From Verrucomicrobiota bacterium (lineage in GTDB: Bacteria; Verrucomicrobiota; Verrucomicrobiia; Palsa-1439): a DNA stretch of 64,000 nucleotides. Under the pieces are notes generated by a model. The model was not told where the DNA came from, did not search any database, and saw only the letters and a program-made list of their open reading frames with translations. The position numbers were made by a program, and so were the translations under genes. The stretch is taken from assembly GCA_003152315.1 (NCBI GenBank), contig PLZV01000043.1:1-64000 (forward strand). Direction: 5' to 3'. Shown here in pieces: positions 48,503 through 58,556 of this stretch (its first letter is position 1; each line of letters begins with the position of its first letter).

Positions 48503-49588
48503 ATGCCCGACACCGCGCAACTGCAGACTTTCACCGCCGGCGTTGAGACCGCCGTGGACGTGGCGCAAATTGAGCGCCAACTTCACGAACTCTGGCAGCT
48601 TGCCGCGGAATCGGCGAAAGATCCGTCGCAACGCCAGATCACCCGCGCCTGCCTCCTCAATTTCATCGTGTTTTGCGAAACCGACGCGGAATCGGCGCAC
48701 GCCAGTGAAGTGATCAGTACGCTCACAAGTCAGCATCCCTGCCGGGCGATCGTGCTGCTGGTGCAGCCAGACGTTGCGTCAGCGGAATTGTCCGCCTCGA
48801 TCTCCGCCCATTGCCACCTCGCCGGCACCGGGCAGAAACAAGTTTGCTGCGAGCAGATTGCGATTCACGCCAGCGGTCCGGGCGTCGCGCACCTGGGCGC
48901 GGCGGTGTTGCCGTTGCTGGAATCCGACCTGCCGACCGTCCTCTGGTGGCAGGGTGATTTTTTGAAAAGAATCGATCTCTTCCGTCGCCTCGTGGCCGTG
49001 GCGGACCGGGTGATTTACGATACGTCGACCTGGACAGACCCACAACCGCAACTGGGGGATCTGGCACGGCGCATCACCGAGCATCCCCGGTGCAGTTTCG
49101 TTGATTTGAGTTGGACCCGGCTGGGCTTGTGGCGCCGGCTCGCGGCGGAGTTTTTCGATGCGCCAAACTGTCGGACGGAACTGGCGCGGATTCGCACGGT
49201 GGACATCGTGCACGGTCACGGGCCCGGCGCCAGTTTGCGGGCGCTCCTGTACGGTTCCTGGATCGCGGCGCAATTGAACTGGCCGGTGGCCGAGGCCAGG
49301 CAGAAGATCCACCTCTCCGCCCGCGAGGACCGCGATGCGACCTCGGTGGGTATCCTCTCGATTGCCATCAAGACGGACGACGCCACCTTCTCGATTCGCA
49401 AAAACTTCGGGGAGAGCACGGCCAGCGCAACCGTTGACATGCCCAATGCCTGCGGCCTGCCCCACAAGCGCGCCTTCTGGCCGGAGGACGACACCTCGCT
49501 CTTGTCGCAAGAACTCGATCTGGGCACGCGCCACACCGTCTATGAGAAGGCGCTGGCGTTGGCGGTGATCGAGGACGTCTCGCGCTAA
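48503..49588 (+). CDS. opcA: Glucose-6-phosphate dehydrogenase assembly protein OpcA-like
   Basis: Directly follows zwf; 'TRACLLNFIVFCE', 'DLPTVLWWQGDF', 'DRVIYDTSTW'. Confidence 0.88.
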   Translation: MPDTAQLQTFTAGVETAVDVAQIERQLHELWQLAAESAKDPSQRQITRACLLNFIVFCETDAESAHASEVISTLTSQHPCRAIVLLVQPDVASAELSASISAHCHLAGTGQKQVCCEQIAIHASGPGVAHLGAAVLPLLESDLPTVLWWQGDFLKRIDLFRRLVAVADRVIYDTSTWTDPQPQLGDLARRITEHPRCSFVDLSWTRLGLWRRLAAEFFDAPNCRTELARIRTVDIVHGHGPGASLRALLYGSWIAAQLNWPVAEARQKIHLSAREDRDATSVGILSIAIKTDDATFSIRKNFGESTASATVDMPNACGLPHKRAFWPEDDTSLLSQELDLGTRHTVYEKALALAVIEDVSR

Positions 49589-52500
49589 GGCAGTGAGATG
49601 TCGATCCGGTAGAACCTCTGCGGATCAACTGCGTTGGTGTCGGTAATCGTGACCTGGTTGCCGTTGGTCACGGGACCGGTGTACCCCGGCAGAAGCAACC
49701 AAACACCACCCACCAAATCCGTGCTGAACTGCGGCGTGTAAGTGCGGCCGGTAGCGACCGGGTTAAAGAGCAGGCTCTCCTGCGACGTCTGGTTGGTAAC
49801 CGCAACCACCTGCAGTTGGAACACCGAAGACGGGTTCGTTGGATCCAGACCCGCCACATACTTGAAGAGGTTGTTTTGGCCGGTGCCGTCGGCATCCACG
49901 CCGGATGCTGCGTTCGGGTTGTTGGTGCTGCCGAAATACTGGACCTGCCAGGCCTGGAACGCCGTGAGCACATTGATGTAATTCGGCTGCGTATTGGTGC
50001 CGGCCCCCCCGAGGCCACTGGCTATGAGCGTTACCGTGTACGCACCGGCGGCGTACGTGTGGACGATACTATTGGTCGTAATGTTCGTTGTGCTCGTGTC
50101 GCCGAAATCCCAGAACCGATTCGTGATTGTCCCTGTCGAGGTATCACTGAAGGTCACCACCAGGGGCTCCGTGCCGCTGGTCGGGCTGCCGCTGAAGCTC
50201 GCCACGGGCGGCAGAGCGCCCAGAAGGTCGTTGTACACCGTCGCGAAACTGTCGGCGACGACGGCTTTGCCAATCGACCCGCCGTCGCTATGGACGGTGG
50301 TGGTGCCGAACTCCGAGATCACCAACGAGCCAACCGTCGCCGGCGGCGAACCACTCCCCACTGGGTTGTTTGCATACTGTGTCTGTGCCCCTTGCGTGGT
50401 GCTCGTTGGATTCACATACACAATCATGTTGGTTCCGGTCGCCGAAGCCTGGACAATGACCCGGTACTGCGTCCCGTAATTGAGAGTGGTTGTCCCGAAA
50501 GTGTAGGGATTACCACTCTGTCCCGTCACGCGGACTCCGAGCAGGAAGTTTGTATTGGCTGCGTCACCCGATTTCGCGCTCAGCCGGTAATTGGCGAATC
50601 CGGTGGCATTGTTGCTGGTGTAGAGCGCGGTGAAGTACGACACGCTGCCGCTGTTCACCGTGTTTGTGAGCGTCAGGGTGAGGCCATAGTACACGGTTTC
50701 ATTGGTGAGCGTGAAATTCTTGTAAGCCGTCTGGCTGCTGGCTGTCAGCCCGCCAGTAAAGAACACCTTGCCGCCACTCACCTGCAACGCCGCGGCGGAG
50801 ATCGTACCCACTTGCGTCCAGCTGTGCTGGCCGACGAGATTGCCCGACGCGAACGTGCTGAAGTCGTCGTAGAACCCGAAACTGCTGATGTTGAGGCTGA
50901 CCGCGCGCGTCGTGTTGCCCGCGCCACTCGTGGTGTTGGTGAACCCGATCGTGTCTGAATAATTGGCGGCGGTCAGGCTGTTGGCGTTGGCATTGATTGT
51001 GGCGGTGACATTCGTGCTGGCGCTGGGCGCCAGTGTGCCGCCGGTGGCGGACAGGGTCAGCCAGTTGGCGGAATTATTCGCCGTCCAGGTCATGGTCGCG
51101 CCGCCGATGTTGCTCAGGGTATAGATCTGGTTCACAGGATTGAACGGACCGCCCGGTGCGCCCGCGGAACTGAATCCCGAGCCGGGGCTGACGGAAAGTT
51201 GCGAAGAGACACTGTTGACCGTCAGGCTGACGGGGCGGGTCGTGTTGCCGGAGCCATTGGACGTGGCAAACGAGATCGTATCCGAGTAGCCGCCGCCAGC
51301 CAGGCTGTTGGCATTGGCGTTGATCGTGGCAACGATGTTCGTACTGCCGCCGGCCGCGAGCGTGCCACTGGTCGCGGAAAGGGTCAGCCAACTGGCCGTG
51401 TTGCTAACGGTCCAGGCCATGGCCACACCGCCGGTATTGCTCAAGGTGTAGATCTGGCTGCTGGGACTGAATGGACCGCCTACCTGACCGCTGGAGGTCA
51501 GTCCCGATGCCGGGTTGACCGCGAGATTCGCCCCGAAAACAAAGAGATCGCTCAAGTCGATGGCGTTGACCGCGTCGCCCAGCAACGGTCCGACGTTAAA
51601 AATCTCCTGCATGGTCAACAGGGTGGAACTGTGCGTGTAATGGTTGGTGTTGGAATAACCACCGCCCTTGGCCAGGGGAGAAAGCACGATCATGCCAATG
51701 GGGCCATCGCCACCCTCCCCTTCGTCCCAGGTGACGAAAATCACGCCGTTGTTGCTGTAAGCCTGGGAGCTCACGATCTCGGCCACCGTGTTCGACAGCC
51801 AGGTGTCACCGGCCGTTATCAATGCATTGCCGGTCAGGCATCCCGTGTTGCCGTGCATGTCGTTGCAGAGATTCGGCGTGATAAAGTTGTAGCGCGTGAC
51901 TACGTTACTTTGGAGGTCGCCGGCCAGTTCCGTAAACGGTCGCACATTGGAGATGCAGTACGTCGAGCCGGTGTTGTTCGTGTTCGTGACGTCGTCGAAA
52001 TGCACCATGGGATTGTGCTTAGCCACGTACTGGCCGCTATCCGTAAGGGGACACGTGGTCCCACTGATACCCTCCTGGAAAGAGGTCCACGAGACGCCCG
52101 CGTTTTTGAGCAGCGTGACCAGATGATTGGTGGTGCCCTCGTGGTAAGTCAAGGCGTCACCATCGGCCAGGATCCCAAAGTTCGTGCCCGCCTCCAGCCA
52201 GAAGTAGTTCGGCAGGCTGGGATGGATGCCGGGGGGGTTGTAGTACTGCAGGGTATACGAGGACTTCGGCAGCAGACCGTTGTTGATGTACGGTGCCGCC
52301 GCATTGCCACTGATCGAAGCCCAGTTCTGGTTTTCCTCCAAAATGATAAAGACTGTCTGAATGCTCTGTGGGGAATACGGCGCGGCAACCGGGATGGTGT
52401 AATCGGCCACCTCGGGGAGGTGATCGCTGCCGGTAGTAAGATACTGGTAGAGTTGTGCGGCGGTGATCCCCGTCACATTCGTGTTAAGATCGTTGTTAAG

Positions 52501-53514
52501 CGCTGTATCGGAACCGGAATTCATGTTGCCGTTGTAAGGCGTCGTGCCATTGTTGCCGAACGTGTGGTATGTACCGGGGATGTACGCCAACCCGCCGGCC
52601 ACACTGTGAAGAACATTGCTCGTCATCATCTGATAATCGTCACGGTATCGAAGATTCGTGGCTGATTCGGTTAACACCGCCAGAATCCCTGTAGAGGTGG
52701 TACTCGAGCCCCAATCGTTAGTGGTCAGCCCGGATGGGTTCAGGACGTCGTACCCTTGATTGGCGCCCCCGGCAATCAGTGTCTGGTACATGGCTTCGCC
52801 ACTGGTACTGGCATTGAAATCGCCTGTGTAAAGAATTCGGGTATTGCTGGGCAACGTCGCCGAGTCAGCGCGGACGATCTGGGCCTCCCCGTTGCGATCA
52901 GTAATGTCGCCCGAAGTCGTGCCCGATTTGTAGTGGCTCACATAGACGTAGAACTCGTTGTTGGTCGTCGGCGTAACACCGGCCGGCGCAAACTCGTAAC
53001 GCACCACCTGACGATATTCCCCGTTCGATGAACCGCCCGGCGTTCCGACTCCGACCGAAGCGACCAACTGTAACGTATTCGTATTGTAGACCATCGCATT
53101 CGGGCCGTTTCCGGCGTTGGAGCCACCAGTATCCGTCCCTTGGTACGGGCTCATCGCGTACCCGGCGGATAAGCTGCGGGAAGAATAAAATGCATTGAGA
53201 CCGTCGACTATCGGCTGGACGGTAACCGGGTTACTGGTCGTCTCCTGCAATGCGAGAATATCGATCGGCTGTGCCGGGTCGCTGCCGAGGATCTCTTCTC
53301 CGATCCCTTCCAGTACACCGCCGTTCGTCACGCTTCCACCGCTGGAGGGACTAATTAAACCCGGGAGCGGAGTGGTCGCGTTACTAATGTCGTCTTCAAT
53401 GTTGTACGTAACGACACGAATCGTGCGCGTTTGCGCGGAAGCGATTGCTGTGATTCCGTAGGCCGCCAAAAAAACCACCCAGCCCAAAAACACACGTCTT
53501 GCGATTGTTCTCAT
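49585..53514 (-). CDS. Large secreted multidomain protein: EEP nuclease + phosphoesterase + Ig-like/anchor repeats + PKD
   Basis: 'TIRVVTYNIEDD...ILALQETTS...YVSHYKSG...ILYTGDFNAS...GSDHLPEVADY' (EEP); 'QTVFIILEENQNWASI...FVTWDEGEGGDGPIGMIVLSP' (phosphoesterase); PKD 'PVASFSGSPTSGTEPLVVTFSDTSTGTITNRFWDFGDTS'. Confidence 0.9.
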   Translation of the reverse strand: MRTIARRVFLGWVVFLAAYGITAIASAQTRTIRVVTYNIEDDISNATTPLPGLISPSSGGSVTNGGVLEGIGEEILGSDPAQPIDILALQETTSNPVTVQPIVDGLNAFYSSRSLSAGYAMSPYQGTDTGGSNAGNGPNAMVYNTNTLQLVASVGVGTPGGSSNGEYRQVVRYEFAPAGVTPTTNNEFYVYVSHYKSGTTSGDITDRNGEAQIVRADSATLPSNTRILYTGDFNASTSGEAMYQTLIAGGANQGYDVLNPSGLTTNDWGSSTTSTGILAVLTESATNLRYRDDYQMMTSNVLHSVAGGLAYIPGTYHTFGNNGTTPYNGNMNSGSDTALNNDLNTNVTGITAAQLYQYLTTGSDHLPEVADYTIPVAAPYSPQSIQTVFIILEENQNWASISGNAAAPYINNGLLPKSSYTLQYYNPPGIHPSLPNYFWLEAGTNFGILADGDALTYHEGTTNHLVTLLKNAGVSWTSFQEGISGTTCPLTDSGQYVAKHNPMVHFDDVTNTNNTGSTYCISNVRPFTELAGDLQSNVVTRYNFITPNLCNDMHGNTGCLTGNALITAGDTWLSNTVAEIVSSQAYSNNGVIFVTWDEGEGGDGPIGMIVLSPLAKGGGYSNTNHYTHSSTLLTMQEIFNVGPLLGDAVNAIDLSDLFVFGANLAVNPASGLTSSGQVGGPFSPSSQIYTLSNTGGVAMAWTVSNTASWLTLSATSGTLAAGGSTNIVATINANANSLAGGGYSDTISFATSNGSGNTTRPVSLTVNSVSSQLSVSPGSGFSSAGAPGGPFNPVNQIYTLSNIGGATMTWTANNSANWLTLSATGGTLAPSASTNVTATINANANSLTAANYSDTIGFTNTTSGAGNTTRAVSLNISSFGFYDDFSTFASGNLVGQHSWTQVGTISAAALQVSGGKVFFTGGLTASSQTAYKNFTLTNETVYYGLTLTLTNTVNSGSVSYFTALYTSNNATGFANYRLSAKSGDAANTNFLLGVRVTGQSGNPYTFGTTTLNYGTQYRVIVQASATGTNMIVYVNPTSTTQGAQTQYANNPVGSGSPPATVGSLVISEFGTTTVHSDGGSIGKAVVADSFATVYNDLLGALPPVASFSGSPTSGTEPLVVTFSDTSTGTITNRFWDFGDTSTTNITTNSIVHTYAAGAYTVTLIASGLGGAGTNTQPNYINVLTAFQAWQVQYFGSTNNPNAASGVDADGTGQNNLFKYVAGLDPTNPSSVFQLQVVAVTNQTSQESLLFNPVATGRTYTPQFSTDLVGGVWLLLPGYTGPVTNGNQVTITDTNAVDPQRFYRIDISLP

Positions 53515-53815
53515 TAGACCCCTATTGCCCTCAGGCAGTTAACCAGATCGTGCGACAAAAAGGCACCTGTTCTTACAGGTATACCCTTTGCGCTGAAGGA
53601 GTTTATCGCCCCAGCACTGCATTCTTGCCCGCGCCCGACCAGAGACACTCAACTTTTTCTTGCATAAAAGATACCACATTTTGCGTTGCTAAACAATGTC
53701 GGAAACATTACAGATTTGTTAGGAAAGCTCGCACGACTTCCACGTGGTCGCAGGCCACGGTTTCTGAGATTGACCGTCTCGGAAATCTTCACCTACAGTG
53801 ACGCCCGAACTCGCC

Positions 53816-55087
53816 ATGAGAATCCTGATCATTGGAAGCGGCGGGCGCGAACATGCGCTCGCTTGGAAAATCGCCCAAAGCCCGCGCGTCACCAAACTCT
53901 TTTGCGCGCCGGGCAACGCCGGCATTGCTGAACTGGCTGAAACCGTGCCCATTCCGGCAATGGAAATCGACAACCTGGCGGCGTTTGCTTCCGCGCAGAA
54001 AATCGATCTGACTATTGTCGGTCCCGAGGGCCCGTTGTGCGCCGGCATTGTTGACTTTTTCCACAGCCATGGCTTGCGAGTTTTCGGCCCGAACAAGCGC
54101 GCCGCCCAACTGGAAGGCAGCAAGGTTTTCAGCAAAAAGATCCTTCTCAAGTACAACATACCCACCGCCGCCGCCGCCATCTTCGATAACCCGAGCGATG
54201 CCCGTGCCCACCTGCACAGGGTCGGGGTGCCGGTGGTCGTGAAGGCCGACGGCCTGGCTGCCGGCAAAGGCGTGATCGTCGCGGAAGCCGTCGCGGAAGC
54301 GGAGCAGGCCATCACCCAAATCATGGAGCGGAAAATCTTCGGCGCGGCGGGCGCCCAGGTCATCCTCGAGGAATGCCTGCATGGTGAAGAACTTTCGGTC
54401 ATGGCGCTCGTCGACGGCCGATCGTTCCAGATGCTGGCGTCTGCGCAGGACCACAAACGCGCGCTGGACGGGGACCACGGCCCGAACACCGGCGGTATGG
54501 GAGCGTATTCGCCCACGCCCCTGCTGAACGACCAGCTCACCGGGCAGGTTGCCGGGATTTTCGGGCAAACGCTGGCGGCATTACAGTTCGAGGGCATCGA
54601 GTACCACGGCGTGCTCTACGCGGGATTGATGATCACCGAGCGCGGGCCACAGGTGCTCGAATTCAATTGCCGATTCGGCGATCCCGAAGCCCAGGTCGTA
54701 CTGCCGCGAATGAATTTCGACCTGGTGGACGCCGCCGAAGCCACGATCGACGGCAGGCTCGACCGCCTTCCGCTGGAGTGGAAGAATGAAGCTGCGGTTT
54801 GCGTCGTGCTGGCCGCGGGCGGCTATCCCGGACCGTACGAGCGCGACCAACCGATTGCGGGGTTGAAAGATGCCGCCGAGTTGGATAAGGTTCATGTGTT
54901 TCACGGGGGTACACGGCGGAACGCCAGCGGCAGAATCGTCACGGATGGCGGACGAGTGCTGGGTGTTACCGCGCTCGGTGGGAACATTGAGAGGGCGGCG
55001 CAGCACGCCTACGAGGCGGTTGAGCGAATTCACTTTGACGGCGCGCACTTTCGCCGCGATATTGCCGCCCGTGCGATACGAACATAA
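53816..55087 (+). CDS. purD: Phosphoribosylamine-glycine ligase
   Basis: 'MRILIIGSGGREHALAWKIAQSP', 'VVKADGLAAGKGVIVA', 'LEFNCRFGDPEAQVVLPRM'. Confidence 0.97.
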   Translation: MRILIIGSGGREHALAWKIAQSPRVTKLFCAPGNAGIAELAETVPIPAMEIDNLAAFASAQKIDLTIVGPEGPLCAGIVDFFHSHGLRVFGPNKRAAQLEGSKVFSKKILLKYNIPTAAAAIFDNPSDARAHLHRVGVPVVVKADGLAAGKGVIVAEAVAEAEQAITQIMERKIFGAAGAQVILEECLHGEELSVMALVDGRSFQMLASAQDHKRALDGDHGPNTGGMGAYSPTPLLNDQLTGQVAGIFGQTLAALQFEGIEYHGVLYAGLMITERGPQVLEFNCRFGDPEAQVVLPRMNFDLVDAAEATIDGRLDRLPLEWKNEAAVCVVLAAGGYPGPYERDQPIAGLKDAAELDKVHVFHGGTRRNASGRIVTDGGRVLGVTALGGNIERAAQHAYEAVERIHFDGAHFRRDIAARAIRT

Positions 55088-55117: not shown

Positions 55118-56287
55118 GTGATCTTGCGAGGTATGATGAAGACAATTATCGTTGGAATTACCGCGGGCCTTTTGTTGTTTGTGGCTGGTGTCACCCCACG
55201 GTGCCGCGCCGCCAGCGTCGGCACGTCATTGCAACCCACGGCGGAAGTAATCAGCGTTCTCAAATCGAATTATGTCGACCGCGATAAACTCAATGAGAAA
55301 CTGCTGAACGAAGCCACGGTCACGGGCATCCTTGATGCCGTGGGCCGCGGCGCAGTGATCGTGGAACCGGAATTACCCTCGACCAACGCCGCCCCAGCCG
55401 CCGAGCCGAAGCCGACGCAGCCCCTCGCACGCGCGGAAGTCATCGGCTCCGACATCGGCTATATCCGCTTGGCCGAGGTGACCGAAGAAACACCCGCCGC
55501 GCTGGACGCGGAGCTGAAGAAATTTGCCGACGCGAAGGTCACCGGTTTCGTGCTCGACCTGCGTTATGCGGGCGGCACAAACTTCGCCGCCGCCGCTGCG
55601 ATCGCTGGTCGATTCCTGAACGACGGACAAGAGTTGTTCACCCTGAAAAGCTCGGAAAAAAGCGCGCAAGTTTTCCGTGCCAGCGCCGAGATTAAACCAG
55701 CATCGACTGCAGGCACGGATCTGACTTCGGCCCCGCTGATGTTGCTGGTAAATGCGGAAACTCGCGGCAGTGCCGAGGTCCTGGCCGGTGCGTTGCGCAC
55801 CGCGGATCGCGGAATCGTTATTGGTTCGAAAACCGCCGGCTCGGCGGCCGGCTGGCAACAGGTGAAACTGAGCGACGGACGTATACTGCGCATCGCTACG
55901 GCGAAGATCGTCCTGTCGCCACCGCAGGATGCGACGCAACCCGTCGAACTGTTCCCCGACGGGCTCACCCCGGACGTTGCCGTCAAGATTGACCCGAAGA
56001 CGGAACGCGACGTGGTACTGACTGTACAAACGAATGAAACCCTGACCGCGAGCCTGCAGCCCCGGGTCAACAAGAAAGGTTTGACGGAAGCCCAGTTGGT
56101 GAAAGTATTCCACGGGCAGTCGATCGATATTGAGCTGCCGATCCGTAAATCGGTGCCAAACACAGACCCGTCATCGACCGACAAGGAACATGAAGAAGAA
56201 GACGAGATTCAAAACGTGCGCGATGTGGTGTTGCAACGCGCCGTGGACATTTTGAAGGGCATCCGCGTGTTGTTGACCTGGCAATGA
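55118..56287 (+). CDS. S41 (C-terminal processing) peptidase-like protein, probably catalytically degenerate
   Basis: '[24 protein letters not shown]...[25 protein letters not shown]...[33 protein letters not shown]'. Confidence 0.8.
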
Positions 56288-56336: not shown

Positions 56337-58556
56337 ATGAAGAAAATTCTCTTCGTTTGCACGGGCAATGTTTGCCGCAGCCCCATGGCGGAGGGTTTGC
56401 TCCGGCACATGTTGCGGGGCCGTAACGACATTCAAGTTGCCTCGGCGGGCCTGGGCGCGCTCGAGGGCGTTGGAGCGACGGGCGTGGCCATCGAGGTGAT
56501 GGCGGAACTTGGGATCGACATTTCGTCGCATGTCAGCCAATCGCTCGGCAGTGAACTCGTTCGCCAGGCCGATTTCATCCTCACGATGACCCGCCAGCAC
56601 TACGACGCGATCCAGGCGCTCCATCCCGCGGCGGCTGAGAAGACGTTTCTCGTGCGTGAATTCGAGGAATTGCGGGCGGACGAGAACAAAGACATTGCCG
56701 ACCCGATTGGCCAATCCCTGGAGGTGTATCGCCGTACTCGTGACCAGGTCCGCGACGCGTTGCCGAGCCTGATCGTCTTTATCAACCAGACGGCGGCCAC
56801 AACGGGCCAGGCGACCCGGGAAGTCGCGGCCGCCACGAACGATGAAACTCGCGCGCTGCGCATCGCCCTGGCGGGCGACCACGGCGGTGTTGAGATCAAA
56901 GCCGCGTTGAAAGACTGGCTCGCCCAGCAGGGATATGCATTCGCTGATTTCGGCACGCATACCACCGACCCCGTGGATTATCCGGAGTACGCGTTTCTCG
57001 TCGCGCGCGAACTGCTCGCGGGTAATTTCGACCGCGGCGTGTTGATCTGTAAGAGCGGCATCGGCATGAGTATTGCCGCCAACCGGTTTCCCGGTGTGCG
57101 CGCAGCCATGGTCAGCAACGAGCACTGGGCCCGCCTCAGCCGCGAACATAACGACGCCAATGTTCTCGTGCTATCGGCGATCGATCTCGATGCCGAGCAG
57201 GCCAAACACCTCCTGGATGTCTGGCTGCACACGAACTTTGATGGCGGCCGCCACGCCCGCCGCGTCGATGAAATGGACCATCCACCCATCATGAACACAA
57301 CCTCTACGCCTGCGAAAAAGACTTCCGCGCTCGCGGTGACCGACCCGGAGATTTTCAACGCTGTCCAGCGCGAGAAACAACGGCAGCAGGAAAACATTGA
57401 GTTGATTGCCAGCGAAAACTTTGTTTCACCGGCCATCCTCGAAGCGGCGGGCACGGTGTTGACGAACAAGTACGCGGAAGGCTATCCCGGCCGCCGCTAT
57501 TACGGCGGTTGCGAATACGTGGACATCGCCGAGCAACTCGCCATCGACCGCGCCAAACAGCTTTTCGGGGCCGAACACGCCAACGTCCAGCCGCACTCGG
57601 GCTCGCAGGCAAACATGGCCGTATATTTCGCCGCGATCCAACACGGAGATACTATCCTGACGATGGAACTCGCTCATGGCGGCCATCTCACACACGGTTC
57701 ACCGCGCAATTTCTCAGGCCGCTTCTATAAGGTCTTCCACTATGGCGTGCGTCAGGACAATGAGATGATCGACTACGATCAACTCGCGAAACTCGCGCAC
57801 GATTGTCGCCCGAAAATGATCACGGCCGGTGCCAGCGCTTATCCGCGCGTCATCGACTTTAAGCGGATGCGCGAAATTGCGGATAGCGTTGGCGCGTTAC
57901 TGTTTGTCGACATGGCCCACATTGCGGGCCTGGTTGCCGCCGGGATTCATCCCAGCCCGGTGCCACTCGCCGATTTCGTCACTACGACAACCCACAAGAC
58001 CTTGCGCGGCCCGCGGGCGGGCTTGATCCTTTGCAAGGCGAAATACGCCAAGGACATCGACAGCTGGGTCTTGCCCGGCATCCAGGGCGGCCCGCTCATG
58101 CACATCATCGCGGCCAAAGCCGTCTGTTTTCTCGAAGCGATGAAACCCGATTTCAAAGACTATCAGCGGCAGATCGTGAAGAATGCGAAGGCGCTCGCGA
58201 CGGCCCTGACAGCACTCGGTTTCCGCATTGTCAGTGGCGGCACCGACAACCACTTGATGCTCGTGGATCTGCGCCCGAAGAAACTCACCGGCAAGATCGC
58301 CCAGGAATCACTCGACCGCGCCGGCATCACCACGAACAAGAACCTCATCCCCTACGACCCGGAAAAGCCGCTCGTAACGAGCGGCATCCGCCTCGGCACG
58401 CCGGCAGTCACCACGCGCGGGATGAAGGAAGCCGAGATGGAGCAAATTGCCGCCCTCATCACGGAAGTGCTGGAAAAACCCGACAATGCAAACGTACAGG
58501 CCAGCGTAAAGGAAAAAGTCCGGGCCATAACTGCGAAGTTCCCCCTACCCTACTAA
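56337..58556 (+). CDS. Three-domain ORF: low-MW protein phosphatase (YwlE-like) - ribose-5-phosphate isomerase B - serine hydroxymethyltransferase
   Basis: '[19 protein letters not shown]' (CX5R); '[20 protein letters not shown]...[21 protein letters not shown]'; '[45 protein letters not shown]...[14 protein letters not shown]', all in one frame without a stop. Confidence 0.95.

Follow-up and report, generated by a model that had tools for sequence, protein, structure and literature searches.

A 64,000-nucleotide stretch of verrucomicrobial DNA (contig PLZV01000043.1; here, "the window") holds a single gene for a genuine three-domain protein, in which an LMW phosphatase (LMWP), an RpiB isomerase and an SHMT follow one another in one polypeptide chain. 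This protein is not a sequencing artefact and, to judge from its sequence, it is very probably trifunctional. More broadly, it is likely that the gene is translated into a real trifunctional enzyme that locks an old purD–ywlE–rpiB–glyA string into co-expression and whose phosphatase is probably the partner of an McsB system. Each part is, of course, ordinary. Their combination, an LMWP-RpiB-SHMT fusion, is nowhere described in the literature searched.

The initial annotation had seen one open frame with three complete domains, and the frame, Pfam and NCBIfam all bear this out. The frame runs uninterrupted from start to stop codon (Table 1). Pfam places LMWPc at residues 4-145 (E 5e-33), LacAB_rpiB at 176-312 (E 3e-49) and SHMT at 333-708 (E 1e-170), each matched over approximately the whole length of its model. 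The RpiB domain scores 151.9 bits against TIGR01120 (cut-off 138.65) and carries the catalytic Cys/His/Asn/Arg set. The SHMT domain scores 655 bits against PRK00011 (cut-off 335) and has K554, Y379, Y389, S500, D525, H528 and R685 in place. The phosphatase has the CX5R(S/T) loop and the DP motif (C8, R14, S15, D122, P123), and the initial annotation was right about the motifs that it had picked out, [17 protein letters not shown] and [10 protein letters not shown]. These are the same full-length domains, with all catalytic residues, that are known from RpiB (TIGR01120) and from SHMT (PRK00011; B. stearothermophilus 1kkj/2w7d); the difference is that neither is free-standing in the window's fusion. 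Annotation of such a protein as "SHMT" alone would miss two enzymes.

Table 1. Features of the fused gene and its upstream neighbours in the window (aa, amino acids).
Feature	Coordinates	Strand	Evidence
Fused gene LMW phosphatase - RpiB - SHMT, 739 aa; ATG at 56337, stop ending at 58556	56337..58556	+	frame, Pfam, NCBIfam, same architecture in relatives
LMW phosphatase domain, aa 1-146; Cys8, Arg14, Asp122; selectivity position 12 = Val	56337..56774	+	Pfam LMWPc; residue table of 64 fusions
Linker 1, aa ~147-174; low-confidence/flexible at 156-171	56775..56858	+	AlphaFold pLDDT <50 at 156-171; dN/dS 0.16-0.30
RpiB domain, aa 175-314; Asp181, His182, Cys238, His271, Asn272, Arg305, Arg309 present	56859..57278	+	Pfam/TIGR01120; residue table
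Linker 2, aa ~315-333, flexible; holds non-conserved in-frame ATG 57291	57279..57335	+	AlphaFold pLDDT <50 at 304-329; dN/dS 0.10-0.32; start/SD scan
SHMT domain, aa 334-739; PLP lysine Lys554	57336..58553	+	Pfam SHMT, PRK00011; 65% identity to B. stearothermophilus SHMT structures
purD (GAR synthetase), conserved upstream neighbour; true start maybe downstream of 53798	53798..55087	+	Pfam GARS_N/A/C; frame as listed
S41-family peptidase-like gene between purD and fusion	55118..56287	+	Pfam Peptidase_S41

A Foldseek search of the fused protein against the PDB added only the match to the B. stearothermophilus SHMT. AlphaFold models the LMWP and RpiB domains confidently and the SHMT part with mixed confidence (mean pLDDT 79, pTM 0.55). 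In this model the low-confidence linkers fit flexible tethers, and the placement of the domains relative to each other is left unpredicted. The chain would most likely assemble by way of the dimer interfaces that RpiB and SHMT normally use, with the tethers flexible. Each domain would keep its usual activity: that of a phosphatase, the interconversion of ribulose-5-P and ribose-5-P, and the conversion of serine to glycine with formation of methylene-THF.

The same architecture was sought in relatives, as the initial annotation had proposed, and was found in one frame in approximately 35 of 57 related genomes, closed and single-contig genomes included, at 95, 85, 78, 72 and on down to 52% identity and with no internal stop. 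A 388-genome sample of the phylum adds further families, and named public genomes with the same three-domain frame belong to Verrucomicrobia (Pedosphaera, Limisphaera, Limisphaerales, Spartobacteria), which assigns the window, too, to Verrucomicrobiota. Outside Verrucomicrobiota, no triple fusion appears among the best 80 matches of one scan. A chance origin of the fusion was also considered; it is ruled out by the E-values of the domains and by the recurrence of the frame in dozens of other genomes.

Conservation was followed in an alignment of 29 full fusions and in a residue table of 64. Here, the phosphatase residues C8, R14, S15, D122 and P123 are invariant in all 64 fusions, as are the catalytic residues of SHMT, K554 included, wherever the sequence covers them. 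The RpiB residues C238, H271 and N272 are kept in 62 of the 64 (first set), the exceptions being two small lineages. Comparison of the three closest genomes gives dN/dS values of 0.09-0.10 for the phosphatase, 0.05-0.07 for RpiB and 0.03-0.06 for SHMT, and those of Table 1 for the linkers. Purifying selection thus acts on every part.

Does the fused RpiB work? RpiA was found in one of 29 relatives, and seven near-complete genomes (G007, G009, G010, G011, G015, G021, G026) yielded no RpiA and no second RpiB. The fused RpiB is, therefore, their only recognisable R5P isomerase. Conversely, there are lineages in which it has been abandoned. In families f7 and f20 (L118, L130, L188-L190, L198) the RpiB domain can still be recognised, although its catalytic Cys/His/Asn are gone; on either side of it, phosphatase and SHMT are matched over their full length and retain the catalytic residues wherever these were examined. 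The dead RpiB is, as far as sequence can tell, a pseudo-enzyme inside a working fusion. In families f9, f14 and f18 (L149-L153) RpiB has been deleted, leaving LMWP-SHMT. A strong stand-alone RpiB is found in 17/17 genomes whose fused RpiB is dead or absent, versus 4/34 whose fused RpiB is intact (Fisher p = 4e-10, a value inflated by shared ancestry, with apparently three or more lineages covered). This pattern, taken with the genomes having a sole isomerase, is the strongest computational case that the fused RpiB is active. The window's genome itself has two more RpiB proteins, so that the fused one is not unique there. One of the two is a second RpiB fusion, RpiB-DeoC, of 442 aa (G000:C62, L147 1977-3302, plus strand).

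The history of the fusion can be read from 127 fetched loci classed by domains per frame, a sample that is not unbiased and in which some loci stop at contig edges. Triple fusions account for 63 of these loci, and an LMWP followed by an RpiB-SHMT fusion for 34. The rest are RpiB-SHMT with no adjacent LMWP within the stretch examined (11), LMWP-SHMT without RpiB (7), LMWP adjoining SHMT (5), three separate genes (3), SHMT alone (3), and LMWP-RpiB split from SHMT (1). The outgroups have three separate genes, the Opitutales group has LMWP and SHMT separate, and Akkermansia-type genomes have RpiB-SHMT with the LMWP elsewhere. The RpiB-SHMT proteins of Akkermansiaceae and other Verrucomicrobiota share with the window's protein its two C-terminal domains in one frame, and differ in that their phosphatase is a separate gene, adjacent or elsewhere.

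Two MAGs with separate genes, one from the Omnitrophota and one labelled as an actinomycete, served to root an SHMT tree. The RpiB-SHMT form is found through the whole phylum on this tree. The triple fusions need several gains or losses: 17 changes, at least 10 of them forced by supported branches, counts that are indicative only, as the tree is quick, has many open forks and includes a recombined part of SHMT. In that part, residues ~431-620 look swapped (L009-L012 versus L001 and L005-L008); here, L010 is 88-94% identical to another family versus 54-78% to L007, a member of its own genus, and in the N-terminal half the relation is reversed.

The idea that a conserved gene string had collapsed into one polypeptide is supported by these data, as relatives display separate genes, two-domain and triple stages, with the string downstream of purD in many. 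In the old string, purD-(S41)-ywlE-rpiB-glyA, it would be rpiB and glyA that joined first and spread through Verrucomicrobiota sensu lato; the upstream LMW phosphatase would have joined RpiB-SHMT later, in several lineages. One phylum thus holds the string, the two-domain fusion, the triple fusion, a dead middle domain, a deletion and a re-split, all for essential enzymes. This makes it testable what gene fusion is good for.

What, then, might it be good for? SHMT is present in the window's genome in a single copy, the fused one, and purD is found close to the string in 31 loci, among them that of the Omnitrophota outgroup whose three genes are separate (L049); a gene resembling the S41-like one lies close by in 30. 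PurD couples glycine to phosphoribosylamine, SHMT yields glycine and methylene-THF, and PRPP derives from R5P. The likeliest benefit would be fixed co-expression of enzymes that supply R5P, glycine and one-carbon units to the PurD step and to purine synthesis. Direct channelling is implausible because RpiB and SHMT share no intermediate, and co-expression would explain the fusion better.

The phosphatase would be carried along as a partner in arginine phosphorylation by McsA-McsB-ClpC. In B. subtilis, ywlE, rpiB and glyA are neighbours in the same relative order as the domains of the fusion. In S. aureus, ptpB adjoins glyA (PMC8001253). The enzyme families and their relative order are thus shared with the window; the differences are that those genes are separate, whereas the window has one polypeptide, and that the selectivity residue has gone from Thr to Val.

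That residue deserves attention. Whether pArg or pTyr is preferred is set by position X5 of the P-loop: YwlE and PtpB have Thr there, pTyr enzymes Ile (PMC8001253). Across relatives, this position is Ile (in many), Ser, Ala, Leu or Thr, with Thr in just 7 of 64 triple fusions; Thr is common in adjacent unfused verrucomicrobial LMWPs and occurs in stand-alone Akkermansia-type LMWPs. The rule, tested for Thr and Ile only, would leave Val undecided, since Val and Thr are of similar size. The "YwlE-like" label of the initial annotation therefore holds in part. The selectivity residue is not that of YwlE, but the CX5R P-loop and the DP motif are shared, and the genome has mcsA, mcsB and clpC in a row (G000:C25, L146 1711-2238, 2246-3367 and 3364-5829, plus strand). 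What sets the domain apart from YwlE/PtpB, beyond Val at X5, is its attachment to metabolic enzymes.

An McsB-family kinase is found in 29 of 29 relatives (the match in G012 being weak). No other LMWPc protein was found in the window's genome save one of the ArsC type, which leaves the fused domain as the sole visible candidate for a phosphatase opposing McsB. It is, by this reasoning from gene content, probably the partner of the McsA-McsB-ClpC system. This points to arginine phosphorylation of the McsB/ClpC type in Verrucomicrobiota and names a candidate phosphatase for it. Literature searches on McsB in Verrucomicrobia brought up, as far as titles and counts go, only passing mentions.

The repeated loss and re-splitting show that the tether is dispensable. 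This, the extra RpiBs of the window's genome and Val at position 12 count against the reading as a whole.

Might the tether instead be a regulator? Here, the phosphatase would dephosphorylate (pArg or pTyr) the attached SHMT and RpiB, or their neighbours, and protein quality control would in this way be linked to the supply of one-carbon units and purines. The LMWP does remain joined to SHMT after RpiB died in place (f7, f20) or was deleted (f9, f14, f18), and McsB is in every relative tested. Such regulation is nonetheless unlikely, since the Akkermansia-type arrangement, and the fully separate genes of others, imply that attachment is not required. Equally doubtful is the specific form in which a covalent phosphatase-SHMT link puts an arginine-phosphorylation LMWP on one-carbon metabolism, some lineages keeping the dead RpiB as a scaffold.

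The reading of a single trifunctional chain must also contend with the linkers, which are variable and modelled with low confidence. The chain might be cut after synthesis, or SHMT might also be made from an internal start, so that separate enzymes do the work. A Met is available at codon 313 and, in the window, at codon 319; the latter is the in-frame ATG of the initial annotation, which does exist but begins at 57291, not 57292. A separate SHMT from codon 319 finds no support, as that ATG has no SD and its Met is replaced by Leu in a genome 95% identical (L005). Codon 313 is frequently Met in relatives, but as part of the RpiB C-terminus (RRVxKM). Several relatives have no ATG anywhere in linker 2, and a start codon with an SD-like motif occurs there in 3 of 29 sequences, the window's not among them. 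Promoter-like and terminator-like signals within the fused gene are no more numerous than in shuffles. The linkers, moreover, vary among relatives yet stay open, and have more synonymous than nonsynonymous changes per site (Fisher p = 0.0013, a rough test with fractional counts). With their dN/dS (Table 1), this implies that they are read as protein, under weaker constraint than the domains. Separate working enzymes are, for these reasons, very improbable.

Erasure of the stops between three genes by sequencing or assembly error has next to no chance of being correct: the window's genome is, to be sure, a 62-contig assembly, but an indel at the junctions is contradicted by coding constraint across both and by the same frame in many independent genomes, single-contig ones included, at 95, 85, 78 and ~60% identity. 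Relatives with separate genes, which the initial annotation had listed among the grounds for refutation, are indeed found, but they represent ancestral or derived states of other lineages and give no sign of error here. What the independent genomes have in common is a continuous frame without a conserved internal start, as expected of a genuine fusion of three genes.

Elsewhere in the window, the minus strand at 49585-53514 encodes a secreted-looking protein of 1309 aa, seemingly made, when inspected by eye only, of several enzyme-like and repeat-like parts.
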